Shown: positions 2,619 through 20,104 of the stretch, one piece after another
How positions within the stretch are numbered: the stretch's first letter is position 1
Layout: each line of letters begins with the position of its first letter
Source: a virus
IMG/VR virus record: IMGVR_UViG_3300021364_000790
Coordinates: 1 to 20,657 of that record
DNA length: 20,657 nucleotides
Direction: 5' to 3' (one strand)
The notes under the pieces: generated by a model
Seen by the model: only the letters and a program-made list of their open reading frames with translations
What the model was told of the DNA's origin: nothing
The model's database searches: none
Position numbers and translations under genes: made by a program

Positions 2619-2626
2619 TATTTATG
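2619..2626 (-). promoter_or_regulatory. late promoter motif CATAAATA
   Basis: Minus-strand CATAAATA, a full match to NATAAATA, the late motif described for T4-like cyanophages. It lies 22 bases before the ATG at 2596 and contains the TAA stop of the upstream oxygenase gene (2622-2624). It probably drives the four small genes at 594-2596. Confidence 0.75.
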
Positions 2627-3239
2627 TTGCCAACGCCAAATTGCCAGCGACAGAAATCCTAGGTTCATCAGTACCATAAAAAGGATAGACAAGATGATTC
2701 ATCTCAGCAGGGAAGAACACCATCAGACCTTCCATCTGCTTACCCATAGGATAGTTGAATGATCTCCTACCACCAAATATATTTACATACTCAAACTGAA
2801 AACAAGAAACACATGGACTGGTAGTCTTCTTTGCAAAAGGTAGTTCCATCTGGTCTCTTGTTTCTACTGGCATCTTCATCCAGATGACAAAAGAATAGAC
2901 ACCAAAGTGTACATGAGATGGATTGAACTCAGTCTGATACTGCCAGTTCACCCAGAGATCATGCAACTGTATGGTTGCTTCCTTTGGTATCTCTGCTACC
3001 AGTTGACAAGGTTTGTAATTAAAATGCTTCTGATAATCATCAGTAACTTCACCGATGAAAGAAAGAAACTTATCACTAGCATCTAACTCCAAGCTGGTGC
3101 TGATGTTGCCAGCAAGTTTTTCTTTTGCGTCTACGCTAGCATGATCGATCATCTCCCAGAGATCTTTCATGACCTCATTTGGGAGACGAACTTCTAACCA
3201 CCCATCATTGGTGGGAACAATAGGTCTTGACTGTAACAT
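2622..3239 (-). CDS. 2OG-Fe(II) oxygenase-like protein (phage type)
   Basis: 205 residues. The C-terminal half has the marks of the short phage/bacterial 2-oxoglutarate, Fe(II)-dependent oxygenases: HVH at residues 109-111 followed by a Tyr/Phe/Val strand (FGVYSFVIWMKMP), a distal His at 182 (MNHLVYP), and RISVAGN at 194-200, whose Arg would bind the 2OG carboxylate. As is usual in this subfamily, the first iron motif reads H-x-H rather than H-x-D. Known members couple 2OG decarboxylation to hydroxylation of a protein or small substrate; the substrate here is unknown. Relative to the 150-residue oxygenase in this window it has an insertion between strand and distal His (about 125-165) with three Cys. 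Its start codon touches an 11-bp palindrome and lacks a well-placed ribosome site. Confidence 0.82.
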   Translation of the reverse strand: MLQSRPIVPTNDGWLEVRLPNEVMKDLWEMIDHASVDAKEKLAGNISTSLELDASDKFLSFIGEVTDDYQKHFNYKPCQLVAEIPKEATIQLHDLWVNWQYQTEFNPSHVHFGVYSFVIWMKMPVETRDQMELPFAKKTTSPCVSCFQFEYVNIFGGRRSFNYPMGKQMEGLMVFFPAEMNHLVYPFYGTDEPRISVAGNLALAT

Positions 3240-6626: not shown

Positions 6627-6634
6627 TATTTATC
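6627..6634 (-). promoter_or_regulatory. late promoter motif GATAAATA
   Basis: Minus-strand GATAAATA, 35 bases before the ATG at 6591. Its first two bases are the last two of the TGA stop of the upstream gene. It probably drives the 1107-residue gene. Confidence 0.75.
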
Positions 6635-9600
6635 AGACACTATACTTAGCACTGGTAGCATTATAGTTTTGTAGAACTTCTGCTGCTGATAAAACTCTAT
6701 CATAAATTTGAATCTCTCCAATAGAACCAGGCCAATATTCACCATTTGTATTGTTAGATCCAATGCTCCATCCTGCAGATCCACCGTGAGTTCCACCATT
6801 GTCAGTCATAGTTTGTGATACACCATCCAAATAGATTGCATGAGCAGGATTGTTACTTCCAACTACAGTCCAAACAATTTGATGCCAATCTCCTGGTCCA
6901 GTTGTAGCAGGTGTGGGAGCAGTCCAATGACTTGTTCCACCATACATCAAAGTAATATTACCAGGCCAAGAAGCAACATTTACAATGCCACAACTAACTC
7001 TCTGACCTGCAATATTCATATTAAGAATCTCATCCATCAGGTTGACTCCAGGAGTCCATGCCGCATTATGAGTCACCCAAGCACAAACAGTGAATGGGTA
7101 TGCATTGATAGGACCAGCAAAAGATATGTTATCGTTAGATCCATCAAAACCAAAAGAGTTTCCACCAAATACTGGTCCATTGAGTGTGCCAGTATAAGAA
7201 GAACTTGAGAGGTTCTTTACTGTGGTTGGTGCGTTGATGGATAGTCCAGATGTTCTGATGTATCTACCATATGAATTTCCACGTTCAACTTGAGGATGCC
7301 AAATGAATAGAGACTTATCAACACCAACTCCAGCATAAGTATTAGCACTAATGCCAAGATACATAGCGCCATTAGTATTACTCTTTGTTCTAGTCCACTT
7401 ACAGAAATACCAACCATCTCCAACAGCAGACATACTAGCACCATTATTAGTAGTGACTCCAGTTGTTAAATTGAAGTTTGCTTGAGAGTCTCCAAACATA
7501 TGCATTTCCAAAACATCATGTGTATTAGCTTTGGCAAAAACAGTAAAGGTAAATGTATCACCGCTAGCAACCGTAACGTTGGGCATGGTTGCGATATTGA
7601 AGTAAGATAACTGTTGCTGTGAAGGGATAGATTCTTTTAGAAGTGCTGCTGTCCTAGATCCATCAGGAGCAATAGCATAGTTATTTTCCCAGAAGTGAAC
7701 TGCTTGATTCCACTTAGTAAAGTCTTCACTCCAAGGAAGTAAGTTTTCAGCACGATCATAAGTCGCTCTGTTTCCAAAGTCATAATTCAGAACTAGATTA
7801 TTATCAACCACAATACCATCAGAAGTAATCTTAGGTGCTACGTCAGGTGCTTCGTCGATATACTTACTCTTGGTGGAGTTGTAGTCTTGGAAAATCTGTG
7901 TTGCTGTTAGAGATCTACTCCAGATTCTAAACTCAGCGATGTCTCCATTGTAAGCATAAGGAGCACCAATCTGCCTAGATCCAATACGAACTGTTCCACC
8001 TGGGTAATGGTAGGGAGTTCCACTAAAAACAGCAGATGTATCTAACACACCATTCTTGTAGATGTATTGAGTAGTTCCATCCCACTTAATAGTAACATGA
8101 ATCCACTCTCCGTCAGGGAAGTTATTGGATCTCAGTTCTGATGTGAATCCAACTCCATTATCATTCAGACCAAACTCAATTGTATTTGGTTCAAAATTAT
8201 TTCTCTCTACTCTCCATGATTGTTCAGCGTCACCGTTACCAATCTGCATTAGTCCTTGAACTGCCACAAACTGTGCTGCCTGCCCTCCTGTAGTAGTTCC
8301 ACGCTGCCACCATGATGCTGTGAATCCACTAGTAATCAAATCGGGTTGATAGTCTCTAGGTAAATCAATAGCAGTTCCAGGGAAGTTGGCGCCTGCTCTT
8401 GTTTGGAGCTCCCACCATCCACTACTATTCCACGTTGCTCCGTCAGCAGTGACAGCAGCGTTACCATTAGCAGTGATAGAAAGAACATCTTCACCACCAT
8501 CACTGATGGTATCACCCTGACATGTAAGAAGTTTTGTTCCAGGAACTCTAGTCAGTGGTTCTGTTGGTGGTGTAAAGTTTGATGTGTAGAGTGCGGTTCC
8601 TTTTACAATACGGAAGTTAGAAATATATCCATTCCAACTAGAATTAGTTGGATCATTTGTATTGGCACCAACTCTAAATGTATAAGCAGAATAATCTACA
8701 GAATTTGTTTGAGTAGCACTAACATCAAAAGTTCCGTTGATATAAAGACTAATTGTATTTCCACCAGATTTAACAAAGGCAAGGTGAGTCCATTTATTTA
8801 ATTGCACAGTGGCAGTGCTACTAAAAAGTATACCATCATTATATCTGAATCTAAATTTATCTACATCATCAGCTGCTTCTAAAGAATAAGAATTACCCAA
8901 AGAAGGACCCATATTCCAGATACGTTTCCAATTACCACCTGTTGCTAATGAACTAGGATAAACCCAACACTCAATTGTAAAATCATCAGTTCCAAAATTC
9001 CAATTAGATCCAGCAGCAACATCCAAGTAATCATTTGTCCCATCAAAACTTACACTGCCCCACCCCAAGTATGGTTCACTGATGACAGTAGTTCCATCTC
9101 TTCCTTTACCAGAAAGATCAGTCCAAGTTCTACCACTTTGACTTTCTCCAAGACTAAACTCAGCAAAGTCTGGAGGTCTAATAGCAGGACTACCACTATA
9201 CTCAAAGCTACCAGCATCATCCATCTGTCTCTTTTTGTTAGAGACCTGAGTAGACAAGTCATCAAAGACAATCTTGTTAGCAGTAAATGGATAGGTGATG
9301 AAGTCGCTAGTGTCGTTCCTTACCGAACCGTCAGATACTCTACTAATTGCGTCACCAATGTTTAGAATTTCATAGTCGATAGTCTCACCAGTTCCTTCTG
9401 CATATTGGAAACCACCCAAACCATTACCAGAACTACTGACCTGACCGAATGTGTATGAATCTGGTGTTCCATTCAATCCATCAATAGCACCGTCAACATA
9501 CATTAGGTAATAGAATGATGGGTCAGCATCAAGACAAACATTACTAAACGAATCAGTATTATTAAAAGAACTGAATAAAGTTCTTCTCCAAACTAGGTTA

Positions 9601-10607
9601 CCATCTTTACCATACTTGCTCAGTACACCACCACGATCATTTCCATTCTGATCATAGTAAGTTCCAAACACAATAGTTTGTTCTGTTTCACCATCAGATT
9701 TTACACGATCAAAAGTGAAATTTTCTAGTGCTGTACCGTTAGTTCTCTTCTGCCAGATTAGATTTCCTTCAGCGGTGTATTTGAATATGTAACCTTGATC
9801 AGAAGAAGTTCCAACAATATAAATTTGATTATTGTTGTCAATAAAAACATCATTCAATACTAGATTAGCACCCGCATCTAAAGTTCTATCCCATAGAACT
9901 TCTCCAGTGTCAGTATCAATCTTGACAATATATCCTTTAGTAAAACTGTCGTCCTCTAGAGAACCAACAGCAACTACTTCTCTTCTAGAGTTAGCATCAA
10001 TACTAATAAGAGTAACGTCTCTGCCTAGCATGAATGCTGACTTACCCCATCCAGGGTTGCCATTGACATCAAACTTTTCTACAAATGCTTGTGCATCTCC
10101 TGATGTGTAACCACAAGCATAATAATTTGCTAAGTTAGTAACAGTATCTACTGCTGATGCAACACCAGTATACTCTACATCAGCAGAGTTAGTTGTTGCT
10201 TGCCAATTAATAGTACCATTATTTTGATATTGTGCAATCCAAGGCACATTACCAGTCTTACCAACAACAATCAAATTATCGTTACTATCCAACTCCATGG
10301 CACGAAGAGTTGTGTCAAGACCTTGTGTAGATTCTATTCTGGTTGTGTAATCTGTAGTCAGAGAACCAGTCTCTAGATTATAATCTTGTCTTTCAAACCA
10401 ACCAAATTCTGTTGAGTTGCTATCTTGTGCTGTACCAGCGAGAGCATACTTCTGGTTGGAAAAGATATACTTTATTTCCGAAGGTAAGTATACACCATCA
10501 GTCCCTGCCGACTGATCAATCGTTTCAAAAAAGTTTGTTACAGCTGCTTGACCAGACGAACCTAGGAGAAATAGGTTTCTGGCGGGACTATTAATTCCTA
10601 CTGGCAT
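6633..10607 (-). CDS. giant tail fibre/adhesin: beta-propeller plus three LamG-like domains
   Basis: 1324 residues. The N-terminus (MPVGINSPARNLFLLGSSGQ) matches a cyanophage structural-protein form I recognise. Residues about 45-450 hold repeated blade-like units ending in a Gly-x-(L/I/V)-x-Trp pattern (NNGTINWQ, DTGEVLWDRTL, AEGNLIWQKR, KDGNLVWRRT), suggesting a beta-propeller. Three concanavalin-like/LamG domains follow: 516-690 (VSFDGTNDYLDV to SNFRIVKGTALYTSNF), 735-912 (ending AEFRIWSRSLTATQIFQDYN) and 1128-1322 (FGFDGSNDNISF to IQIYDRVLSAAEVLQNYN). Between the last two, 954-1120 resembles a carbohydrate-binding module (NLLPWSEDFTKW to ERGNSYGRYIRTSG). The domain set argues for binding glycans or another host surface ligand. 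GAGGAT gives a good ribosome site, and the ATG lies 10 bases after the upstream stop, so the two giant genes form one unit. Confidence 0.87.
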   Translation of the reverse strand: MPVGINSPARNLFLLGSSGQAAVTNFFETIDQSAGTDGVYLPSEIKYIFSNQKYALAGTAQDSNSTEFGWFERQDYNLETGSLTTDYTTRIESTQGLDTTLRAMELDSNDNLIVVGKTGNVPWIAQYQNNGTINWQATTNSADVEYTGVASAVDTVTNLANYYACGYTSGDAQAFVEKFDVNGNPGWGKSAFMLGRDVTLISIDANSRREVVAVGSLEDDSFTKGYIVKIDTDTGEVLWDRTLDAGANLVLNDVFIDNNNQIYIVGTSSDQGYIFKYTAEGNLIWQKRTNGTALENFTFDRVKSDGETEQTIVFGTYYDQNGNDRGGVLSKYGKDGNLVWRRTLFSSFNNTDSFSNVCLDADPSFYYLMYVDGAIDGLNGTPDSYTFGQVSSSGNGLGGFQYAEGTGETIDYEILNIGDAISRVSDGSVRNDTSDFITYPFTANKIVFDDLSTQVSNKKRQMDDAGSFEYSGSPAIRPPDFAEFSLGESQSGRTWTDLSGKGRDGTTVISEPYLGWGSVSFDGTNDYLDVAAGSNWNFGTDDFTIECWVYPSSLATGGNWKRIWNMGPSLGNSYSLEAADDVDKFRFRYNDGILFSSTATVQLNKWTHLAFVKSGGNTISLYINGTFDVSATQTNSVDYSAYTFRVGANTNDPTNSSWNGYISNFRIVKGTALYTSNFTPPTEPLTRVPGTKLLTCQGDTISDGGEDVLSITANGNAAVTADGATWNSSGWWELQTRAGANFPGTAIDLPRDYQPDLITSGFTASWWQRGTTTGGQAAQFVAVQGLMQIGNGDAEQSWRVERNNFEPNTIEFGLNDNGVGFTSELRSNNFPDGEWIHVTIKWDGTTQYIYKNGVLDTSAVFSGTPYHYPGGTVRIGSRQIGAPYAYNGDIAEFRIWSRSLTATQIFQDYNSTKSKYIDEAPDVAPKITSDGIVVDNNLVLNYDFGNRATYDRAENLLPWSEDFTKWNQAVHFWENNYAIAPDGSRTAALLKESIPSQQQLSYFNIATMPNVTVASGDTFTFTVFAKANTHDVLEMHMFGDSQANFNLTTGVTTNNGASMSAVGDGWYFCKWTRTKSNTNGAMYLGISANTYAGVGVDKSLFIWHPQVERGNSYGRYIRTSGLSINAPTTVKNLSSSSYTGTLNGPVFGGNSFGFDGSNDNISFAGPINAYPFTVCAWVTHNAAWTPGVNLMDEILNMNIAGQRVSCGIVNVASWPGNITLMYGGTSHWTAPTPATTGPGDWHQIVWTVVGSNNPAHAIYLDGVSQTMTDNGGTHGGSAGWSIGSNNTNGEYWPGSIGEIQIYDRVLSAAEVLQNYNATSAKYSV

Positions 10608-10617
10608 CTATCTATCC

Positions 10618-13600
10618 TCAGCTAAAGTCTGTGTTTCCTTGTCCAAAGACCTTCGTTACACCAGCGTTGTCCTTGACGATAACAAATGTAAGTATATCTG
10701 TGTTTGCTGTTGGTACTGGTGGCGAACCGCCCGACCACTGAACACCATTCGAGATCGCTACACTGTCAACATTACATGCGTCACCATAGATTGCTGCAGT
10801 GTTGGCAGTCAAGATCAGAGTGATTGTCTTCGACTGTCCATTAGATAGTCCAACACCAGTGAAGTCCCAAGTGTTGATTGCAGTAGCAGCAGGTGTACCA
10901 CAGAAAGTATTAGCACCTGCAAGGTTGATTGTAAGAACTCCAGAGGATGGAGTCAGAGCAGTTGAGTAGTTGTTGAATACCTTCTCTGTAACTACACCAC
11001 CAATGGTTACGAATCCATCAACAGTTAGATTAGTCAGTGTGCCAACAGATGTAAGTGAAGAGTTGACAACTGTAGCACCAAGAGTAGATGCACTCAATGC
11101 TAACTGGTTACCAATGACAAACTTCTTACCGAATGCAATCTCCAAGTTCTCAGAGAATGTCCAATACTTATCGGTTCTAGTATTGTCATAGAGGATAGTC
11201 TTGTCTGTGTCTCCCTTCAGGATCAATCCACCACCGTTAGCTGCGGTGTCACTGGGACCAGTACCATCAATAGTTGCTGTACCAGATCCACTAACAGAAG
11301 TAGATAGAGTAGCAGAGTTACCATTCAGACTTACAATTTCACAGTTAGCACCAAGATCAATACCACCCGTGACAGAGTTCAATCTCATGCCAGGAATAAT
11401 ACCTGCAGTTGGTGTGATACCTGTGATCTGGTTGCTGCCATCAGTACAAACAGCAGTGAATGTAACGTTAGCAACTGCTGCTAGTTCTAGGTTTTTGTCA
11501 TCTACAGAAATAGTATTCGACTCAATGGTTGTGGTCGTTCCCTGAATCACCAAGTTGCCTTGAATTGTAGTGTCTCCACCAACAGTTAGATCACTAGGAA
11601 CAGTAACCTTAAACTGATTGTCACCCCTAATCCATGCGTTGGTTCCAGATCCAATGACAAGTTGTCTATCACCACCAATGTTTGGTGGAGCATAAGTTGC
11701 ATCAGCAGCGTTCTCGTTATCTGATGGACCGATCAGAACGTTACCAGTTCCTAGTGCAGCGTAACCAGCATAGTGTCCGATACATACGTTAGCATCACCT
11801 GCGTTGTTGGATGCCAGTGAGTTGTTACCGATACCAACGTTCTGCTCACCGTCTAGGTTTACCAACAAACAATCTTTACCAATCGCAACGTTGTTACGTC
11901 CAACACCATTTGCTCTCAGTGCTCTGTTACCAATCGCAGTGTTAGAAGCACCAGAGTTATTTGTATACAGTGCTTCAAAACCGATCGCAGTATTCTGAGA
12001 TCCAGAACTATTGTTTAGCAGTGCATTGTGACCAGCACGAACGTTAGATGTAACACTACCACCACCTCTACCAACGTAGAATGGAGCAGCACTACCACCG
12101 TATAGAGTTAGGTCTGCAAGTTCTAGATTGAGTGTACCATTGAATGTGATTGTATCAGATATTGCTGTACCTACTGTCAGGTCTTCATTGACAACTACAC
12201 TCTGATCAAAGGTTGTAGTACCACCAGCAGCACCAATTGTAATTGTCTGTGCTGCACCACCAAGATTAATAGAAGTTGCAGTGGAGTTGACAAGGTTGAA
12301 AGAAGCAGATCCAGTGTTGATTGCGTTTAGAATCGTTGGACCATCTTGGAATACAAGTCTACTAGTTCCAGTGGTGTCAGAGATAAGACCACGCAATTGA
12401 GTAGAAGTTGTAGATGCAAACGCTGCAAGAGTGTCAGATCTATATGCAATGTTACCACCGTTTCTAAAGTTGACAGTGACAGATGCATTTGCATCATCAC
12501 TAGTAAGAAGCAGTGATCTCTGAACTTCCAGACTCTTAGCAGGATCGACAGTTAGTGTAGAGGATGCTGTCGATGTAATAATCAAACCGTTGATTGATGT
12601 TGCTGTTGCAGCACCAAGTGTAGGTGATGTTAGTGTTGGAGAAGTAAGAGTCTTATTTGTTAGTGTCTGAGTCTCGTTCTCAGATACCATTCTGTGCTCA
12701 ATAGATCCATCAAAAGATCTCCAGTATCCACCGCTCTCATACCACTGGAATGCTTGGTAAGACGATACGTTACCAGCAGCATCAGTTGCTCTGTTGAGTT
12801 GGATACCACCATCAGCACCAGTTAGGTTGGTTCCTTTTCTCAGTTCGATCTGGTTGTCTTCAACAATCAGAGTCTGTGTCTCTAGAATAGTTTGTGTGCC
12901 AGTGACGATTAGGTCACCACCAATAGTAACAGTAGATCCGTTGTCAGTAATAAGACTATTTGCTAGTTGACTGTTACCAGAGTCCCACTTGATAACTGTG
13001 TTACCAGTGAAGTTAGCATTGTTCTTGAGTTGGAAGTCAGCGCCAGAAAGAAGAACACCACCAGATGCAGTCAAAGATGCACCAGTATCAGAGTTGACAG
13101 AACTAATTTCAAATGTGGTTACACCACCTGCTGTTGTCTGAGTAATACTAGTAGCACCAGATCCAGTAAACTTGAAATCTCCTGCGCTGACTAGGTTAGC
13201 ACCAGATGCCAGTCTTGTTACGGTGTTGGTGTCAACACTAGAAATCTCAAGAGTAGATCCTACCTGAGATACAGTAACATTAGTTCCACCAGTAAGAGTG
13301 ATATCACCAGAAGTATAACTTCCAATTGTTGTTCCCCTCAGTCTAGTGACAGTATCAGTGGAAGAGTATTGGATAGTTGGATCTCCATTTCCATCTACAC
13401 CCTGAGAAATACTGGTCGCACCAGCAGCAAGGAATGTGAAATCACCAGAATTAAATACCTGTCCAGCAGTTGCTCTCAGTCTAGTAACAGTATCAACATA
13501 ACTGGAGTCGATAGTAATTGTACCACCTGCTTGAGATACAGTAGAAGATCCAGTAGCAGCGATGGTAATAGCACCAGTCTGTGGTGTACCACCAACAGCA

Positions 13601-14178
13601 GACTGAACTGTAGTTACCGTGTTATTATCTACAGATGTACCAGCAATAGTAATAATATCTCCCTGTCTGTCAAGTTCTAGTACAAGAGGTTGAGATCCAG
13701 CAGGGACAGAAGCAGGAGATCCAACCGCTAGTACGATATCATCATTGCCAGAACCAGATCCACCAGCAGTCAGTCTAATAATTTTTTGTGTTGCAGACAG
13801 TCCATCTACAGCAGAGACTGTATACGTTGTATTGTCATTTGGTGTAACAACTGTTCCGCCTAGAGCAATAGCAGAACCATTGATAGTAATAGATGAGTTG
13901 GATAGAGCAGCGTTTGGGACGTTAGTAATTGTGTTCGAAGCACCTGAAATAGTAGAACTCAAAAGAGTTTTATTTGTCAGTGTTTGTGTCTGTGTTAGAT
14001 ACACATCACCAGGACTACCCCATAGAACATTCGTCCCATCACTAGTCAGATACTTTCCAGCACCCCTGTCACCACTGATGATAATACCATTGTTTGTTAG
14101 CTCTAAACTATCACCAGCTACAAGCTCTTCAATCTTCCTTGATACTTCATTTACAATTAATGGAAAACGGTCAGACAT
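10618..14178 (-). CDS. repeat-built tail fibre/adhesin-like structural protein
   Basis: 1186 residues, Ser/Thr/Gly/Asn-rich and without enzyme motifs. After an N-terminal part (MSDRFPLIVNEVSRKIEELV) come fibre-type modules: QTLTNKTLLSSTISGA (65-80) recurs as QTLTNKTLTSPTLTSP (504-519). A tandem series of about 41-46-residue beta repeats spans 184-361, marked by DTVTRLR at 229 and 275 and DTNTVTRL at 316. Residues 712-817 hold seven units of a 17-residue repeat (core N-x-AIG), probably a beta-solenoid like adhesin head domains. GDLTV/TIQGNLVIQG motifs and KYWTFSENLEIAFGKKFVIG follow, then a compact C-terminus. It is expected to form trimeric fibres on the virion; its order relative to the 1324-residue protein suggests partners in one appendage. 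A late-promoter motif lies 31 bases before the ATG. Confidence 0.86.
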   Translation of the reverse strand: MSDRFPLIVNEVSRKIEELVAGDSLELTNNGIIISGDRGAGKYLTSDGTNVLWGSPGDVYLTQTQTLTNKTLLSSTISGASNTITNVPNAALSNSSITINGSAIALGGTVVTPNDNTTYTVSAVDGLSATQKIIRLTAGGSGSGNDDIVLAVGSPASVPAGSQPLVLELDRQGDIITIAGTSVDNNTVTTVQSAVGGTPQTGAITIAATGSSTVSQAGGTITIDSSYVDTVTRLRATAGQVFNSGDFTFLAAGATSISQGVDGNGDPTIQYSSTDTVTRLRGTTIGSYTSGDITLTGGTNVTVSQVGSTLEISSVDTNTVTRLASGANLVSAGDFKFTGSGATSITQTTAGGVTTFEISSVNSDTGASLTASGGVLLSGADFQLKNNANFTGNTVIKWDSGNSQLANSLITDNGSTVTIGGDLIVTGTQTILETQTLIVEDNQIELRKGTNLTGADGGIQLNRATDAAGNVSSYQAFQWYESGGYWRSFDGSIEHRMVSENETQTLTNKTLTSPTLTSPTLGAATATSINGLIITSTASSTLTVDPAKSLEVQRSLLLTSDDANASVTVNFRNGGNIAYRSDTLAAFASTTSTQLRGLISDTTGTSRLVFQDGPTILNAINTGSASFNLVNSTATSINLGGAAQTITIGAAGGTTTFDQSVVVNEDLTVGTAISDTITFNGTLNLELADLTLYGGSAAPFYVGRGGGSVTSNVRAGHNALLNNSSGSQNTAIGFEALYTNNSGASNTAIGNRALRANGVGRNNVAIGKDCLLVNLDGEQNVGIGNNSLASNNAGDANVCIGHYAGYAALGTGNVLIGPSDNENAADATYAPPNIGGDRQLVIGSGTNAWIRGDNQFKVTVPSDLTVGGDTTIQGNLVIQGTTTTIESNTISVDDKNLELAAVANVTFTAVCTDGSNQITGITPTAGIIPGMRLNSVTGGIDLGANCEIVSLNGNSATLSTSVSGSGTATIDGTGPSDTAANGGGLILKGDTDKTILYDNTRTDKYWTFSENLEIAFGKKFVIGNQLALSASTLGATVVNSSLTSVGTLTNLTVDGFVTIGGVVTEKVFNNYSTALTPSSGVLTINLAGANTFCGTPAATAINTWDFTGVGLSNGQSKTITLILTANTAAIYGDACNVDSVAISNGVQWSGGSPPVPTANTDILTFVIVKDNAGVTKVFGQGNTDFS
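11728..12045 (-). repeat. 17-residue (51-base) coding repeat, seven units
   Basis: The repeat lies inside the 1186-residue protein. Units start at residues 712, 729, 746, 763, 780, 797 and 813 with core N-(T/V)-x-IG (NVRAG, NTAIG, NTAIG, NVAIG, NVGIG, NVCIG, NVLIG), and the middle units are linked by xxAL/xxSL and an Asn/Gly turn. Spacing is exactly 17 residues five times, then 16. The regularity argues for stacked coils of a beta-solenoid. Confidence 0.8.
13096..13629 (-). repeat. tandem coding repeat of about 41-46 residues, four units
   Basis: The units start at about residues 184, 229, 275 and 316 of the 1186-residue protein. Each runs from an Asp/Asn-Thr-Val-Thr-x-Leu start through a GDFTF-like strand to a (S/T)-(V/I)-(S/T)-Q motif and ends in an I-x-S-S strand. 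They are diverged at the amino-acid level, so duplication is old or under diversifying selection. Confidence 0.65.
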
Positions 14179-14219: not shown

Positions 14220-16241
14220 TCAGGCAATAATGATCTGTCCAACCATTCCACTGTGGAATTGACAGATATACCAGTAGGTTCCTGGGGTTACACCACTTGT
14301 ATCCCAAGTAATAGTTGCAAGCTGCTGACCATTATTTGTTACGGTTCCAGTAGTAACAGCATTACCTGTTCCTAGCGTTGGAGATGTCTTGATCCAGAAT
14401 GGATGACCCAATGCATTTACATTGAACACTAAAGTATCTCCAGCAGAACAATTGATAGAAGGATCTAGTGCAGTGTTGAAAGTTCCTAGAGCATCACTTC
14501 CAGTAAAGGTAAAACTAGATGATCCACTACTTCCTACTGTAAATGTATACGTCTGTGCTACTAAAGCACCAGTACACAGTAACTTTCTCCTTGGAAATAC
14601 TTGCCCATCAAATCTTTTACCAACAGTGGTAGCAATTTGTCCAACTTGTCTTCGAGGATTTTGTGCTAGCAGATACCTGTTTGGACTTCCTCCCCTAGAA
14701 GATGGGTCATTGAATCCACCACCGTTGACATCAAATGTCATATCACCAGTCTTACTATACTGCTGAAGATATCCAATGACATCATCTTGTGTAAATCTAT
14801 CTTTGCCCGTAGCAAGACATGCCATGACACCACATACCTGTGGTGATGCCATACTAGTTCCTTGAATGGGATAAAAGTAGTTACCAGAACCTTGTGTATA
14901 TTTTGTGTCGTTTAGTCCAGTGTTTCCATAAGCAGAAACGATGTTATCACCAGGAGCATAGACATCAATAGCAGGACCAAAGTTGGTGTAAGTAGATCTC
15001 CTAAAGTCCCCCTGCTTACTCAGAGCACCAACATTAATTGATCCACTATCAGGAGAATTTGGCCAACCACCTCTCATGTAATAGAATGTTCCAACTCCAC
15101 TTACAGAAATAGTATTGTTCCAGTTAGCACCATTTGGATCTGCGAACAAAAGATTATCATTTCCAGCAGCACCAATGATAACAACACCATCATCAATTGC
15201 ATCTTGAATGTCTGCATTGACAGCAGAACTCCATGCTGGATACACATCGACACCAAATCTAATACCAAAGTCAGTTGTTAGACCTGCTGCTGTCCACCCA
15301 CTAGGTCCTGGGTTACCAGCATTATATACAGTGCCTTGATAAAATACCTGTGTAACATCAGCAAACTGTAAGTTACTATTTGGCATAGGAATAATGCCAC
15401 CATAACTATGGTTTGTAATGGTAGGATTTCTTTTTCCAGTTGTTGGATTGATTGGTTTATTTTGATGGAACGCTCTCAAGTAATCAAAGATTAGCAACGC
15501 TGGAAACTGCTGTCCAGATGGATACTGACCAGTGACTGCCATGTTATAGATGTTTGCTTCTCTTGCCCATCCATAATGCTGACCACATGCAGTTCCAGTT
15601 ACGTGATTGCCATGAAACTCTGGTGTTGAAGCATTAGTTCCGTATGTAATTGTTCCAGTTGGTTCTGTCATTCCATCATCATCAATAGTATTGACTAATG
15701 TATTCAACTCATTGAACCACTGATACTGAACAAACCTTGTTTGATTACTGCTAGGACTGTACCACTCTTCACTATCATATGATACTGGGTCATCAACAAT
15801 AACTACATCAACATGTCTACCGTTGTTGAATACTTCTACACTATCATTGACTTGTTCGTATGTCCACCCCTGACTGATAGGTCCAAACTGATTCTTACCT
15901 CTCTGTGCGTCACTTCCTGCACAGTGAATGTGTCCCCACTGATAATCATTAGGACTGATAGTTGTTGATCCCTGTGTATCATCTTTCCAGAAGTTACCAG
16001 TTACAGCATATGATTCATTGCTAACTACCTGGCGTCTAGGAATAAAGCTATCTGCACGTTCTACACCCCAGACTCTAGGGTCTTGGCGCAGTCTCTCTGC
16101 CTGTTCCTCTGTCATCATGTAGTGAGTGTTCCTACTAATAGGACGCTTTCTAGTTAAAGGAAAGTTACTGAGTTGCATCTCATTGTAAAACTGCTCCAGG
16201 TCTTCTTTCCTGTAAAGAGTTACAACGTATTCCTTATCCAT
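14220..16241 (-). CDS. subtilisin-family (S8) serine protease with C-terminal cupredoxin-like domain
   Basis: 673 residues. Residues 1-65 resemble a subtilisin I9 propeptide (KEYVVTLYRKEDLEQFYNEM, then MTEEQAERLRQDPRVWGVE), normally a folding chaperone cut off by the mature enzyme. The catalytic domain spans about 140-480: Asp150 (VVIVDDPV), His210 (HGNHVTGTACG), oxyanion Asn361 (VVIIGAAGNDN) and Ser463 (GTSMASPQVCG), so the set is complete. Residues about 560-673 form a beta sandwich ending in the type-1 copper pattern: His613 (GHPFWIK), then Cys660, His663 and Met666 in YICQFHSGMVG. No signal peptide is visible, so it should act in the cytoplasm during assembly or ride on the virion. The ATG follows the upstream stop by one base, with GAGG as ribosome site, coupling it to the 296-residue fibre gene. 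Targets are unknown. Confidence 0.92.
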   Translation of the reverse strand: MDKEYVVTLYRKEDLEQFYNEMQLSNFPLTRKRPISRNTHYMMTEEQAERLRQDPRVWGVERADSFIPRRQVVSNESYAVTGNFWKDDTQGSTTISPNDYQWGHIHCAGSDAQRGKNQFGPISQGWTYEQVNDSVEVFNNGRHVDVVIVDDPVSYDSEEWYSPSSNQTRFVQYQWFNELNTLVNTIDDDGMTEPTGTITYGTNASTPEFHGNHVTGTACGQHYGWAREANIYNMAVTGQYPSGQQFPALLIFDYLRAFHQNKPINPTTGKRNPTITNHSYGGIIPMPNSNLQFADVTQVFYQGTVYNAGNPGPSGWTAAGLTTDFGIRFGVDVYPAWSSAVNADIQDAIDDGVVIIGAAGNDNLLFADPNGANWNNTISVSGVGTFYYMRGGWPNSPDSGSINVGALSKQGDFRRSTYTNFGPAIDVYAPGDNIVSAYGNTGLNDTKYTQGSGNYFYPIQGTSMASPQVCGVMACLATGKDRFTQDDVIGYLQQYSKTGDMTFDVNGGGFNDPSSRGGSPNRYLLAQNPRRQVGQIATTVGKRFDGQVFPRRKLLCTGALVAQTYTFTVGSSGSSSFTFTGSDALGTFNTALDPSINCSAGDTLVFNVNALGHPFWIKTSPTLGTGNAVTTGTVTNNGQQLATITWDTSGVTPGTYWYICQFHSGMVGQIIIA

Positions 16242-16242
16242 A

Positions 16243-17133
16243 TCAAGCCTCTAGTTGTAGGTACGTTAATGTTACAGTAATATTATTAGTTGAACCACTC
16301 TTATTAACAACCTTCATATAAGTTGTGGTATTAGCAGCGGTATTATAGCAGATCGTACCTGGCGTGATGATTTGAGTAACAGCACCTGTTGTAATAACCT
16401 CAGTGAGAACACCAGATCCTGGCAGTGGATCTGTCAGTTCCGTTCTGCTAGCATCAGATGTTCTGCTAGCAGTGCTGTCATAGATTGTCACCCATGCGGC
16501 ATGAGATGTTTGAATGCTATACAACACATAGGTTTTGGCAGTTGTGATAGAAACATTTGCCGCAGTATTATTAGCAATAGATTGTGTTACCTGTGCCGTA
16601 GTTCTTGTCTGCAATCCTGTCGCACCAGCAAGAGTTGCATTGACCCAGTTTGCACCATTGTACTGAAGGACTTGACCGTTTGATGGTACAGCAATTGAAA
16701 CATCACTGATGTTAGTTAGAGCACCAAGAGATCCAGCAGATCCAGTAACATCAATATTATATACACCACTCAATCTGTCAGCAGAAAGAGTTCCAGCATT
16801 TAGATTACTAGCATTAGTAAAATACACACCCTGCTGTCCGTCTAAAAGATCAGCATCAAGACCAGATCCAGGACCATCATTAAGACCAGGACCAGAGAAT
16901 CCACTCAAATCAGGTGGTGTATATGTAAACACACCGTTGTTAGAATTATAACTCAGAGAAGGAGTGCCTGCTGCATTGCTAGAAACAGATAGCAATGTCA
17001 AATCTGTAGCACTTTGTCCAGCACCTGCTGCAGCCCAAGATGATCCATTCCAAACGTAAGTCAGACCAGCAACTGTATAAGTATAAGATCCGTCAGTTGG
17101 TTGCCCTGCTGTCGAGGGAAAATTGATTGCCAT
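16243..17133 (-). CDS. tail-fibre-like structural protein built of shared modules
   Basis: 296 residues, ATG at 17133 with a strong AAGGAG site 11 bases upstream. Modules in order: an N-terminal YTVAGLTYVWNGSSW strand pair; LSYNSNNGVFTYTPPDLSGF (60-79), also present twice in the 787-residue fibre; a fibre repeat with DADLLDGQQGVYF and NLNAGTLSADRLSG (93-123) ending NIDVTGSAG; GQVLQYNGANWVNA (153-166), another module shared with the large fibre; then a C-terminal beta domain (175-296; YVLYSIQTSHAAWVTIYDST, NKSGSTNNITVTLTYLQLE) that I recognise from cyanophage fibres. It is likely a short fibre or a fibre-tip subunit. Its stop is one base from the protease ATG, so the two may act together. Confidence 0.85.
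   Translation of the reverse strand: MAINFPSTAGQPTDGSYTYTVAGLTYVWNGSSWAAAGAGQSATDLTLLSVSSNAAGTPSLSYNSNNGVFTYTPPDLSGFSGPGLNDGPGSGLDADLLDGQQGVYFTNASNLNAGTLSADRLSGVYNIDVTGSAGSLGALTNISDVSIAVPSNGQVLQYNGANWVNATLAGATGLQTRTTAQVTQSIANNTAANVSITTAKTYVLYSIQTSHAAWVTIYDSTASRTSDASRTELTDPLPGSGVLTEVITTGAVTQIITPGTICYNTAANTTTYMKVVNKSGSTNNITVTLTYLQLEA
16897..16956 (-). repeat. TYTPPDLS coding module, copy in the 296-residue gene
   Basis: This codes a 20-residue module with FTYTPPDLSG (residues 60-79). The same module recurs at 18258-18317 and 19140-19199 in the next fibre gene upstream, with clear similarity at the DNA level, e.g. a shared minus-strand run around the PPDLS codons. Confidence 0.75.
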
Positions 17134-17165: not shown

Positions 17166-19529
17166 TCAAAGATCTAGGATATATCCCCTGAACTGCTCAT
17201 AGGTGTCACAAGCAACCATGATTTCTTTAAGATCTGCAAGCATGATAACATCGTCTCCACCCCATGTGAGGTTACCATCATGGAACGATAGATTCTTACC
17301 ACCTTCCGTGTGAATAGAACCCGTGTCTAGATATAGATCACGTACTTTGTACTCGGCACTACCAATATCATATGCAGCATTTACTTCTGGGATTATATGA
17401 CCTGCACCAGTAATCTTCCATCGTGCTGTGGAGTTTGTTCTGAATGAAAGAGCAGCATCAACTGATGTTCCACCAACATTGGCAAGAACAAGACTAGTTG
17501 CACCATTAGTGAGACTAGATGGATCTGCTAGTGGTGGAGATGTATCAACCCACTGAGAACTATCAGTATCCTGGTAGTAAATCTTGAGGCGACCAGTGTC
17601 ACTCTCCCACCACAGATCACCAGCAACGGCAGCAGGTGGTGTGTCTGCGATAGTCACACTAGCAGCACCGCCACCGCCTCCACCAGTATTGTCATCACTT
17701 GGTTCCCACTGAGTACCACTCCACTTGAGAACTTGTCCTGCATTGGGAGTTGTATTGGCAACATTTGAAAGGTCACCAAGTTCAGATCCAGTGTCAAGCA
17801 TCTGGATCCAACCACCAGCATGTGCAAAGTATCCATGTCCCTCAGAATGAACATGAGCAAACATACCATGATATGTTCCTGCGTTGACAGCGTTAAGTGC
17901 TGTCAGATCAGCAAAGTTATTAGAGAAGTAAACCTTACCAGTAGTTGTGATGTCTCTAGTTGTTGTAGAACCTCTAGAAAGAACACTATCTAGTGTGTCA
18001 GTCTCTGTATAGGATGAAATGTAGCTAGGAGTAAAGTTTTCCCAGTTGGTTGTTGCTGCATTATATCTCAGCAACTGTCCTGTAGAAGGACTGCTAACAT
18101 TAACATCTGTGTGGGTAGTAATAGAACCAAGACTGCTTAGATATCCTGCAGCAGCATGATTGCCCCATCCATATGCTGCATCCCAGTTGCTAACTTGAGT
18201 GGAAGTAATACCACTAGCAGCAGATGCGGAAAAGACAGGATCAGTTTCAGCACTTAGATAACCAGAAAGATCTGGTGGTGTGTATGTAAAGACACCGTTT
18301 GTATTATTATACGATAGATTTGCTGTACCAGCAGGCGCTACACTAACAGACAAATCTCCAAAGGTTAAACCACCCGATCCACCTACAAGATCGTTTGCTG
18401 GTTTCCAGGAAGAACTAGATGCTTCCCACTTGAGAACTTGTCCATCAGTTGGAGCGACGCTTAGATCTACACTGTTGAGATGTGTAAGATCCAGTGCGCT
18501 TCCATTTACTGTATATCCACCAGTAGCATTATGAGTTCCTTGTGTTTGAGAACCACCAGGAGTAGTTTGTAACTTTAGACTACCATTATAGAAAAGATCT
18601 ACTTGAGCATTTGCTATAGCGACAATTGCATACTGAGATCCAAATCTATGGAACATGCCAGTGCCATTAGATTCAATCCAAAGACTTCCATTACCACCCT
18701 CTTGGATATAAGAATCACTTCCGTTGCTATAGATTCTTAGATTATTGTTGGCACCAAAGTAAACGCTATCGTTACTATCTACAAATAAATTTTGAGTTAG
18801 ATATGTGTTTGCGTTTAGTTCAATCTTAGAAGGATTTCTATAGCACTTCAGTTCATTGCCATCTCCAAGTGCTACAAAAGCATTGCTGGCATTGCCAGCA
18901 AAAAGATATAGATTATAGTCTGGGGAATCAATAAAAGCCCCATCGATTCCAGTATAACTTCTGAACTGTAGACGAGTGTAAGATCCTGTGTCGTAGATTC
19001 TTAGAGTTCCATTGTTAGTTCCGTCATTCCTAAGGGTAATTTCAGGTGCAACAATAGCACCAGTAGAAATACTTCTAGAACTAGAAGATCCTCTAGCAAG
19101 TACCTGATCAAGAGTAGAAGTCTCAGTGTATGATGTCAGGAAAGAAGAGAGATCTGGTGGAGTGTATGTAAACTCACCATTAACTGAACTATAAGAAAGA
19201 GTAGAAGCACCAGCAGCAGTTACAGTTACTGTAGGAAGAGGAGGAACTGTTGGTTTGTTTAGAATTCTAGTAACACCACTAGTAGCATCCCAATCAGAGT
19301 TTACTTGAGCAGCAGGAATACTAGGTCTATTAGAAAGACTATTGTAATTTCCATCAAAAGGAGTAGTCCACTGTATAGTAGAACCAGTCGTGCTCAGTAC
19401 CTGACCAGAAGTACCTGCGCTACCAGCAGCTTGTAGTGGTTTTCCAGCAGGGATGTTGAGACCTTCTTTGATCTCAATAGGAGAGTCATCCCCGTAATTA
19501 GCGATCTGGTTCGCAAGAATTTTTGACAT
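17166..19529 (-). CDS. modular tail fibre protein
   Basis: 787 residues. The start MSKILANQIANYGDD and IKEGLNIPAGKPLQ are typical of cyanophage tail fibres. It is a mosaic of repeats: GQVL-x-W-type modules at 42-54, 363-376, 485-496 and 599-609; TYTPPDLS modules at 111-130 and 405-424; and two copies of a TET-x-TLD-x-VL-x-RGS segment at 133-159 and 506-532. Residues 160-340 form a long unique region of short strands (NNLRIYSNGSDSYIQEGGNG). The C-terminal part has a Gly-rich hinge (616-621), WWESDTGRLKIYYQD (640-654) and HIIPEVNAAYDIGSAEYKVR (711-730), a recognisable fibre motif. It probably forms a trimeric tail fibre contacting the host. A late-promoter motif lies 37 bases before the ATG. 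Confidence 0.87.
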   Translation of the reverse strand: MSKILANQIANYGDDSPIEIKEGLNIPAGKPLQAAGSAGTSGQVLSTTGSTIQWTTPFDGNYNSLSNRPSIPAAQVNSDWDATSGVTRILNKPTVPPLPTVTVTAAGASTLSYSSVNGEFTYTPPDLSSFLTSYTETSTLDQVLARGSSSSRSISTGAIVAPEITLRNDGTNNGTLRIYDTGSYTRLQFRSYTGIDGAFIDSPDYNLYLFAGNASNAFVALGDGNELKCYRNPSKIELNANTYLTQNLFVDSNDSVYFGANNNLRIYSNGSDSYIQEGGNGSLWIESNGTGMFHRFGSQYAIVAIANAQVDLFYNGSLKLQTTPGGSQTQGTHNATGGYTVNGSALDLTHLNSVDLSVAPTDGQVLKWEASSSSWKPANDLVGGSGGLTFGDLSVSVAPAGTANLSYNNTNGVFTYTPPDLSGYLSAETDPVFSASAASGITSTQVSNWDAAYGWGNHAAAGYLSSLGSITTHTDVNVSSPSTGQLLRYNAATTNWENFTPSYISSYTETDTLDSVLSRGSTTTRDITTTGKVYFSNNFADLTALNAVNAGTYHGMFAHVHSEGHGYFAHAGGWIQMLDTGSELGDLSNVANTTPNAGQVLKWSGTQWEPSDDNTGGGGGGAASVTIADTPPAAVAGDLWWESDTGRLKIYYQDTDSSQWVDTSPPLADPSSLTNGATSLVLANVGGTSVDAALSFRTNSTARWKITGAGHIIPEVNAAYDIGSAEYKVRDLYLDTGSIHTEGGKNLSFHDGNLTWGGDDVIMLADLKEIMVACDTYEQFRGYILDL
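17934..18014 (-). repeat. SYTET-TLD-RGS coding module, second copy
   Basis: Residues 506-532 of the 787-residue fibre (SYTETDTLDSVLSRGS) repeat residues 133-159. Together with the TYTPPDLS copies this marks an internal duplication of a multi-module block. Confidence 0.7.
18258..18317 (-). repeat. TYTPPDLS coding module, second copy in the 787-residue gene
   Basis: Residues 405-424 (LSYNNTNGVFTYTPPDLSGY). It is closer to the copy in the neighbouring 296-residue gene than to the other copy in its own gene, which suggests exchange between genes. Confidence 0.75.
19053..19133 (-). repeat. SYTET-TLD-RGS coding module, first copy
   Basis: Residues 133-159 of the 787-residue fibre (SYTETSTLDQVLARGS), directly after the first TYTPPDLS module. 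Confidence 0.7.
19140..19199 (-). repeat. TYTPPDLS coding module, first copy in the 787-residue gene
   Basis: Residues 111-130 (LSYSSVNGEFTYTPPDLSSF), the most diverged of the three copies in the window. Confidence 0.72.
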
Positions 19530-19566: not shown

Positions 19567-19574
19567 TATTTATG
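19567..19574 (-). promoter_or_regulatory. late promoter motif CATAAATA
   Basis: Minus-strand CATAAATA. It contains the TAA stop of the oxygenase gene (19570-19572) and lies 37 bases before the ATG at 19529. It probably drives the 787-residue fibre gene. Confidence 0.75.
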
Positions 19575-20022
19575 AATATACAAGATTGCCAGCAACGATG
19601 CTTCTACCATCACCCCTGTTTGGTGGAACGTAATGATCTGCCCACCCAGGAAATAACAACATCATACCAGCAATAGGTTTGATCCTCTTACTCAAATTTC
19701 TGAATACAATAGGAGAAGATCCTGGTGGAGTATTCACATAATAAACAAATGACCAGTCGTTCTGTATATGATTATGAAAAGTCTGATGGTGACCAATCTT
19801 GTAAACCTGACCCCACAAATCAACTAACTTTGTAGGTTTATCTATAAGACTCTTCGCGTAATCAGCAATGACATTAAATTCTTTTACATCAAAACAATCC
19901 CACTGAGTCATTAGTGCTCCCTTATCTTTGGTAACACTGTTCTCACATATAATCTTATGCAGAATAGGATTCATCTCTTCTGCTTTTGGATATTTGTGTG
20001 CTTCTATTTCTTTTATCTTCAT
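19570..20022 (-). CDS. 2OG-Fe(II) oxygenase-like protein (phage type, short form)
   Basis: 150 residues. Motifs in order: VDLWGQVYKIGHHQTFHNH, with the iron-site HNH at 83-85; a following strand WSFVYYVNTPPGSSPIVFRN; GMMLLFPGWADHYVPP with the distal His130; and RSIVAGN at 140-146, whose Arg would hold 2-oxoglutarate. This is the pattern of the putative 2OG-Fe(II) oxygenases common in cyanophages, again with H-x-H in place of H-x-D. The reaction would be 2OG-dependent hydroxylation; the substrate is unknown. It is the shorter relative of the 205-residue enzyme at the far end of the fibre cluster. The ATG lies 10 bases after the 3' end of tRNA-Gly, with no Shine-Dalgarno match in that gap. Confidence 0.85.
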   Translation of the reverse strand: MKIKEIEAHKYPKAEEMNPILHKIICENSVTKDKGALMTQWDCFDVKEFNVIADYAKSLIDKPTKLVDLWGQVYKIGHHQTFHNHIQNDWSFVYYVNTPPGSSPIVFRNLSKRIKPIAGMMLLFPGWADHYVPPNRGDGRSIVAGNLVYS

Positions 20023-20032
20023 GATTCTATAA

Positions 20033-20104
20033 AGCGGGAGATCGGATTCGAACCGACGACATCTAACTTGGAAGGATAGCGTTCTACCACTGAACTACAC
20101 CCGC
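20033..20104 (-). tRNA. tRNA-Gly (anticodon UCC)
   Basis: The 72-base minus-strand cloverleaf folds fully: acceptor GCGGGTG/CTCCCGC, D stem GTTC/GAAC, anticodon loop CTTCCAA (anticodon TCC, reads GGA/GGG), five-base variable loop ATGTC, T arm GTCGG-TTCGAAT-CCGAT and discriminator U. It has two U-U mismatches, one in the acceptor (6-67) and one in the anticodon stem (30-40). CCA is not encoded. It is a typical cyanophage tRNA, thought to supplement host codon supply; Gly codons are abundant in the fibre genes next to it. Confidence 0.95.

Follow-up and report, generated by a model that had tools for sequence, protein, structure and literature searches.

A tail-cluster subtilase of T4-like cyanophages with an apparently exchangeable cupredoxin domain and a putative copper site

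The window analysed here is a 20,657-nt IMG/VR virus fragment (IMGVR_UViG_3300021364_000790, positions 1 to 20,657) whose nearest DNA, by DNA comparison, is that of the T4-like cyanophages S-H9-1, S-RSM4 and S-WAM2. On its minus strand lies a single open frame (14220..16241, (-); ATG at 16241, stop at 14220-14222) that encodes a 673-aa tail-cluster fusion of a subtilase with a cupredoxin domain, a protein of PHROG 9158 whose counterparts in S-H9-1 and S-WAM2 are annotated 'subtilisin-like serine protease'. Homologues spanning at least 80% of the fusion protein occur in 28 phage records, and relatives are found in dozens of IMG/VR contigs; the frame is therefore not a chance one. Immediately upstream is a fibre-like gene of 296 aa (16243..17133, (-); phrog_9627 and tail-fibre phrogs), and the original prediction that the protease gene starts one base after the stop of a fibre gene holds, as does the tail context: the stop codon (16245-16243) and the start codon of the protease gene (16241-16239) form a TGA-T-ATG junction with a single base between them. 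The identical one-base spacing precedes the protease in ACG-2014j, S-H9-1, S-WAM2, S-RSM4 and S-MbCM7, and translational coupling of the two genes would be the natural reading of this arrangement. The cluster also encodes a 787-aa tail fibre protein (17166..19529, (-); phrog_9729) and, downstream of the protease, a 1186-aa virion structural protein (10618..14178, (-); phrog_6002) whose S-RSM4 homologue carries a record note of similarity to an S-PM2 protein detected by mass spectrometry (MS). In the order of transcription the window reads tRNA-Gly, a 2OG-Fe(II) oxygenase-like gene, the tail fibre and fibre-like genes, the protease and three large virion structural proteins. The tRNA-Gly (TCC; 20033-20104, (-)) lies just upstream of the tail-fibre cluster and occupies the same place in S-H9-1, S-WAM2 and S-RSM4, and two 2OG-Fe(II) oxygenase-like genes (2622-3239, (-), and 19570-20022, (-)) flank the tail cluster. 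A 1324-aa structural protein (6633-10607, (-)) has three Laminin_G_3 stretches, the same lectin type that replaces the cupredoxin in the relatives L020-L022.

Residues 78-530 of the fusion protein (14652..16010, (-)) form a proteinase K-like subtilase (S8) catalytic domain, which matches Pfam Peptidase_S8 (PF00082) with an E value of 1.5e-21 (77.4 bits against a cut-off of 21.8). In an AlphaFold2 model of the fusion protein built with 46 relatives (window and IMG/VR sequences), the mean pLDDT was 86.6, with most of the catalytic domain above 85-90, and the solved structures closest to the S8 part were proteinase K-like (VIA Z 34.1, rmsd 2.4 over 278 residues). The complete subtilisin site that had been read from the sequence is present: Asp150 (codon 15792..15794, (-)), His210 (15612..15614, (-)), the oxyanion Asn361 (15159..15161, (-)) and Ser463 (14853..14855, (-)) sit in the motifs VIVDD, HGNHVTG, AAGND and GTSMASP, respectively. 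All four are invariant across the 77-78 protease ORFs long enough to cover them (78/78 for Asp150), and all four are kept in 11 divergent S8 proteins of cyanophages with identities as low as about 25%, including those of S-SCSM1 and P-SSM2, with whose DTG aspartate Asp150 aligns. The residues that follow the catalytic Asp vary, being DDP in the window protein and D-A/G-H, DTG or DSG elsewhere among the 11. Because the catalytic residues stay invariant in near relatives and aligned in divergent ones, the phage S8 enzyme is, judging by these alignments, under strong selection for catalysis. Compared with the proteinase K-like subtilases of PF00082 (8c4z, 4dzt aqualysin I and 2prk), the window protein shares the fold (Z 33-34), the Asp-His-Ser triad and the oxyanion Asn, but it has long insertions (about 450 versus 280 residues) and Asp-Asp-Pro in place of Asp-Ser/Thr-Gly, it lies in a phage tail context, and no signal peptide was apparent by eye at its N-terminus. 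The contractile-sheath 'subtilisin-like domain' (PF04984) was considered and rejected, the match being to PF00082 with a full active site.

Residues 1-77 (16011..16241, (-)), for which an I9-like propeptide had been proposed, are conserved in 32 relatives. In the model, the secondary-structure order of residues 3-62 is predicted at moderate confidence (pLDDT about 67-87) to be beta-alpha-beta-beta-alpha-beta, which matches that of the ferredoxin-like I9 fold, and model residue 78 aligns with the first residue of mature proteinase K. By sequence, PF05922 (I9) scored 14.7 and 10 bits against a cut-off of 21.2, with only the last 20 positions aligned, and a propeptide profile searched against the PDB returned only noise. 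Because the Pfam score falls below the cut-off, we call the N-terminus I9-like only and do not assign it to PF05922. The protease unit is followed by a linker predicted to be disordered (residues 531-562; 14556..14651, (-); pLDDT about 31 at 531-560), within which lie the conserved FPR motif that closes the protease unit and the junction between the modules.

The C-terminal part of the protein (residues 563-673; 14223..14555, (-)) is a cupredoxin domain by AlphaFold2 and VIA fold match. When residues 556-673 were modelled alone the pLDDT was 96.4; the best VIA match to this model was the cupredoxin domain of Hyphomicrobium nitrite reductase (2dv6; Z 11.0, rmsd 1.9 over 92), rusticyanin scored Z 10.2, and nearly all of the 49 Foldseek matches at E <= 0.001 were copper proteins. 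The two folds thus came out as the original prediction had expected, and we regard the identities of the two domains, subtilase and cupredoxin, as nearly certain. By sequence, the cupredoxin part alone scored 19.9 bits against PF00127, just below the cut-off of 21.2, and a profile of the phage cupredoxins searched against the PDB found plastocyanin 1bxu first (E 0.001), then more plastocyanins, amicyanin and rusticyanin. In the alignments inspected, the phage His and the Cys/His/Met loop fall onto the copper ligands, so that the four predicted type-1 ligands occupy plastocyanin ligand positions: His613 (codon 14403..14405, (-)), Cys660 (14262..14264, (-)), His663 (14253..14255, (-)) and the putative axial ligand Met666 (14244..14246, (-)). 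The loop, C-x2-H-x2-M, has the spacing of amicyanin 1sfd. Relative to the small blue-copper proteins of PF00127 (plastocyanin, amicyanin, rusticyanin) and the NirK-fused cupredoxin 2dv6, with which they share the fold and the four ligand positions, the phage cupredoxins differ in having His-Pro rather than His-Asn/Ser, in their low identity (about 18-27%), in being fused to protease or fibre proteins and in having no apparent secretion signal. An origin from the phage photosynthesis gene petE finds no support in the ligand spacing or in the His-Pro motif.

The conservation of the putative copper site was surveyed in a ligand-blind sample, in which viral contigs were searched only with the 46 residues between His613 and Cys660, and all cupredoxin domains, including those from the protease search, were scored by a profile with the four ligand columns masked. 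His, Cys, His and Met were all kept in 110 of 118 distinct full-span domains, and in the other eight, from about five lineages, both His ligands and the Cys were missing together while the fold was kept; loss of a single ligand was seen in none of the 118. Variants in loop length retain the ligands as well (C-x2-H-x4-M in L082 and C-x3-H-x2-M in L087). Across both the catalytic and the ligand positions, then, residues are conserved among homologues, the exceptions being joint losses in a small number of other proteins or copies. Since the ligand residues are kept or lost as a group, they behave in these alignments like one metal site, and this site, most likely for copper, is probably functional. 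One reservation is that Pro follows the first His in 108 of the 118 domains; small blue-copper proteins usually have Asn or Ser there, and the T1 motif of laccases, HPxH, likewise has Pro.

Comparison of relatives indicated that what follows the protease unit is exchangeable. The conserved FPR motif, near residue 550 of P0001, ends the protease unit, and the sequence beyond it differs between relatives: protease-only relatives (S-WAM2, S-RSM4 and others) stop just past it; the window protein, ACG-2014j, S-CAM4, S-H9-1 and about 40 more continue into a cupredoxin; L020 (E 9.8e-23) and L022 have a Laminin_G_3 (LamG) lectin as the C-terminal module; S-MbCM7, L066, L074 and others have an alpha/beta-hydrolase and then a cupredoxin; and L043 has several cupredoxins in one protein. 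The hydrolase insert resembles esterases or PHB depolymerase-like proteins at a weak to moderate level (best E 7e-12), and a search of PDB sequences with it gave no match. In L080, L084 and L086 the cupredoxin precedes the FPR motif, and L076 has cupredoxins both before and after it; the same module has therefore been inserted at two places. A quick tree of the protease requires the cupredoxin to have been gained or lost at least seven times and the esterase likewise at least seven times, counts from which we omitted L036, which appeared cupredoxin-free but retains a frame-shifted remnant of the domain. Furthermore, L059 and L013 share 89% in the cupredoxin but 55% in the protease core. The domain pair had been thought unusual; in our search of cyanophages it proved to be the commonest architecture of the protease family in the sample, and the fusion is common in T4-like cyanophages. 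As far as sequence comparison can tell, the cupredoxin is an optional, swapped C-terminal module. In L158 (220-3348) the I9-like part is separated from the S8 domain by a hydrolase-like segment, recognised by eye, and a cupredoxin without the ligands follows; judged from this arrangement, L158 is a second place of hydrolase-S8 joining. In L029 (4971-7958) about 280 residues split the cupredoxin (576-660 and 939-996).

Whole-genome scans found exactly one S8 gene in 10 of 10 phage records, and in the regions that we fetched the S8 genes adjoin fibre, baseplate or other structural genes. The two domains also occur apart. Scans of the complete genomes of S-WAM2, S-RSM4, S-CREM1 and S-H38 detected no cupredoxin of the phage family, and cupredoxin domains without protease are found in the P-TIM68 'baseplate wedge tail fiber protein connector', in P-SSM2 fibre proteins and in the long tail fibre proximal subunit of S-SCSM1. 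In S-SCSM2R (L179; 4131-6923) the S8 gene is followed, about 20 bases on, by a gene annotated PetE; its protein matches the tail cupredoxin family (E 3e-12) and, on that match, is probably not a photosynthetic plastocyanin. A 2648-aa protein of S-BM3 (L006; 9077-17023) annotated 'peptidase S8' gave no S8 match in Pfam, its domains being of the cupredoxin, YHYH and Ig types, and we did not count it as an S8 fusion. Its annotation looks wrong, or else refers to a degenerate half domain. Evidence on the virion comes from S-SCSM1, in whose record both ORF228, an S8 protein 29% identical to the window protease, and ORF231, the proximal tail fibre with a cupredoxin, are tagged '(virion protein)', as is the prohead protease. 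We counted 48 such tags, and the published account (PMC9602691) gives 45 proteins that MS detected in purified virions. Not every predicted structural gene has the tag, several (those for the baseplate hub and head completion proteins among them) being without it; from this we infer that the tag marks detection by MS.

Taken together, the structural cluster, the virion tag of the homologue, and the lectin swap and esterase addition lead us to favour a tail-borne protease acting outside the host. Specifically, we put at roughly 0.5 the probability that the window gene encodes a virion-borne tail protease with exchangeable accessory heads that trims host surface protein at adsorption. The protease would be made together with the upstream fibre protein through translational coupling, fold under its propeptide and then cleave itself near residues 70-78; the mature enzyme would ride on the tail, in the fibre or baseplate region, and cut a host surface protein near the adsorption site, much as tail modules of the depolymerase or esterase type do to surface glycans. 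The C-terminal module would be an accessory head, here a putative copper-binding beta-sandwich that probably serves attachment or stability on the virion or the host. Because the cupredoxin is absent or swapped in relatives, copper should not be needed by the protease, and the domain would be dispensable for proteolysis. Of the parts of this reading, carriage in the virion is probable; the identity of the substrate as a host surface protein stands at about even odds, and the role of the cupredoxin as an attachment or structural module is a similarly balanced call. The occurrence of cupredoxins on the P-TIM68 connector and the P-SSM2 fibres counts in favour of this reading as a whole; against it, the I9 score lies below the Pfam cut-off, the virion tag belongs to a homologue of 29% identity, and maturation proteases too occur in virions.

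This last point makes fibre maturation, which we think less likely, the main rival, since an enzyme of that kind might also be found in the virion, beside its substrates. The enzyme would then cleave neighbouring fibre or structural proteins during assembly, with the C-terminal module docking it to the substrate or to the assembling tail. Such a role is consistent with the fibre genes that adjoin the protease in all close relatives and with the one-base spacing to the upstream gene. Moreover, in S-SCSM2R and P-SSM2 it is the next gene that holds a cupredoxin, the protease having none, so that enzyme and substrate could share a docking partner, and the prohead protease of the same phages indicates that maturation proteases occur and stay in virions. 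However, the number and size of the neighbouring fibre genes vary among relatives, and the lectin swap and the repeated addition of an esterase-like hydrolase are hard to explain for a pure assembly factor; both are parts expected on host-facing tail gear and favour the cutting of host surface protein. An intracellular protease for host takeover, with no link to the virion, would fit the lack of an apparent signal peptide, but we consider it very improbable given a gene inside a structural-gene cluster, a homologue tagged as a virion protein, and fused lectin or cupredoxin modules of kinds also seen in fibre proteins.

Two further alternatives concern the cupredoxin itself. That copper or its redox state switches the protease on and off, a form of control that had been suggested for the window gene, has in its favour that both sites are intact in a single chain. 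The protease nevertheless persists in S-WAM2, S-RSM4, S-CREM1 and S-H38, a disordered linker of about 30 residues separates the two domains, and the cupredoxin is inserted at two chain positions (before the FPR motif in L080 and L084, after it in the window protein). As many relatives do without a cupredoxin, copper control is unlikely as a general mechanism, and we give such a switch hardly any weight. Alternatively, the domain could be a beta-sandwich spacer that has retained the cupredoxin fold and whose site in vivo is empty or occupied by a different metal. The prevalence of Pro after the first His and the retention of the fold in the lineages without ligands would accord with a spacer, which we think improbable in view of the all-or-none retention of the ligands, the Cys kept at the ligand position, the ligands kept by the loop-length variants, and a nearest cellular relative that passes PF00127 (31.5 bits against 21.2). 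At the other extreme, the tails of T4-like cyanophages may carry genuine blue-copper centres on fibres, baseplate connectors and the protease, perhaps with the esterase, and use copper at infection; this is a doubtful proposition, as is any particular use of the metal, be it to dock on a host surface that handles copper, to sense redox state or to lock the head by a redox change. If true, the iron sites of phage fibres would have a counterpart in copper. Those iron-binding HxH sites (T4 gp37; PMC11705849) are, like the putative copper site, metal sites on a tail protein of marine phages, but differ in metal, fold and ligands and lie in trimeric fibre shafts.

The S8 family itself is already known. 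P-SSM2 PSSM2_297 (T4-GC 292) carries the record note 'contains PF00082', the ACG-2014e protein is named 'Peptidase S8/S53' in UniProt, and S8 peptidases have been reported in P-HM1 and P-HM2 (PMC3037559). These cyanophage peptidases (T4-GC 292, PHROG 9158, the S-H9-1 and S-WAM2 protease) share family, gene, tail-cluster position and catalytic site with the window protein, and those of S-WAM2 and S-RSM4, unlike it, have no cupredoxin. None of their annotations that we saw names a cupredoxin or an exchange of modules. A literature search that covered few subscription papers found no description of the cupredoxin fusion, of module exchange or of a conserved copper-type site in virion proteins, and no link between the S8-cupredoxin gene and host range (the coevolution mutations in PMC9910659 concern S-PM2d); the modular design and the copper site are thus apparently undescribed. 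Our analysis predicts that abundant marine phages have a protease and type-1 copper sites on those parts of the virion that face the host. This is relevant to the way in which cyanophages get through the host surface, to the shuffling of domains among adsorption proteins and to the trace-metal chemistry of virus particles. Given the all-or-none pattern of the ligands, a single 12-kDa domain would suffice for a direct test of copper binding, and the names petE or 'peptidase S8' may in some phage records have been given wrongly to tail modules. Among cellular proteins, the closest relative of the phage cupredoxin (profile E 1.7e-35) is a free-standing cupredoxin of Prochlorococcus sp. AG-670-O13 (L187; 4773-5189), which has an apparent signal peptide and the loop C-x2-H-x4-M; because it is present in one of the 121 genomes of its family, its gene was probably acquired.
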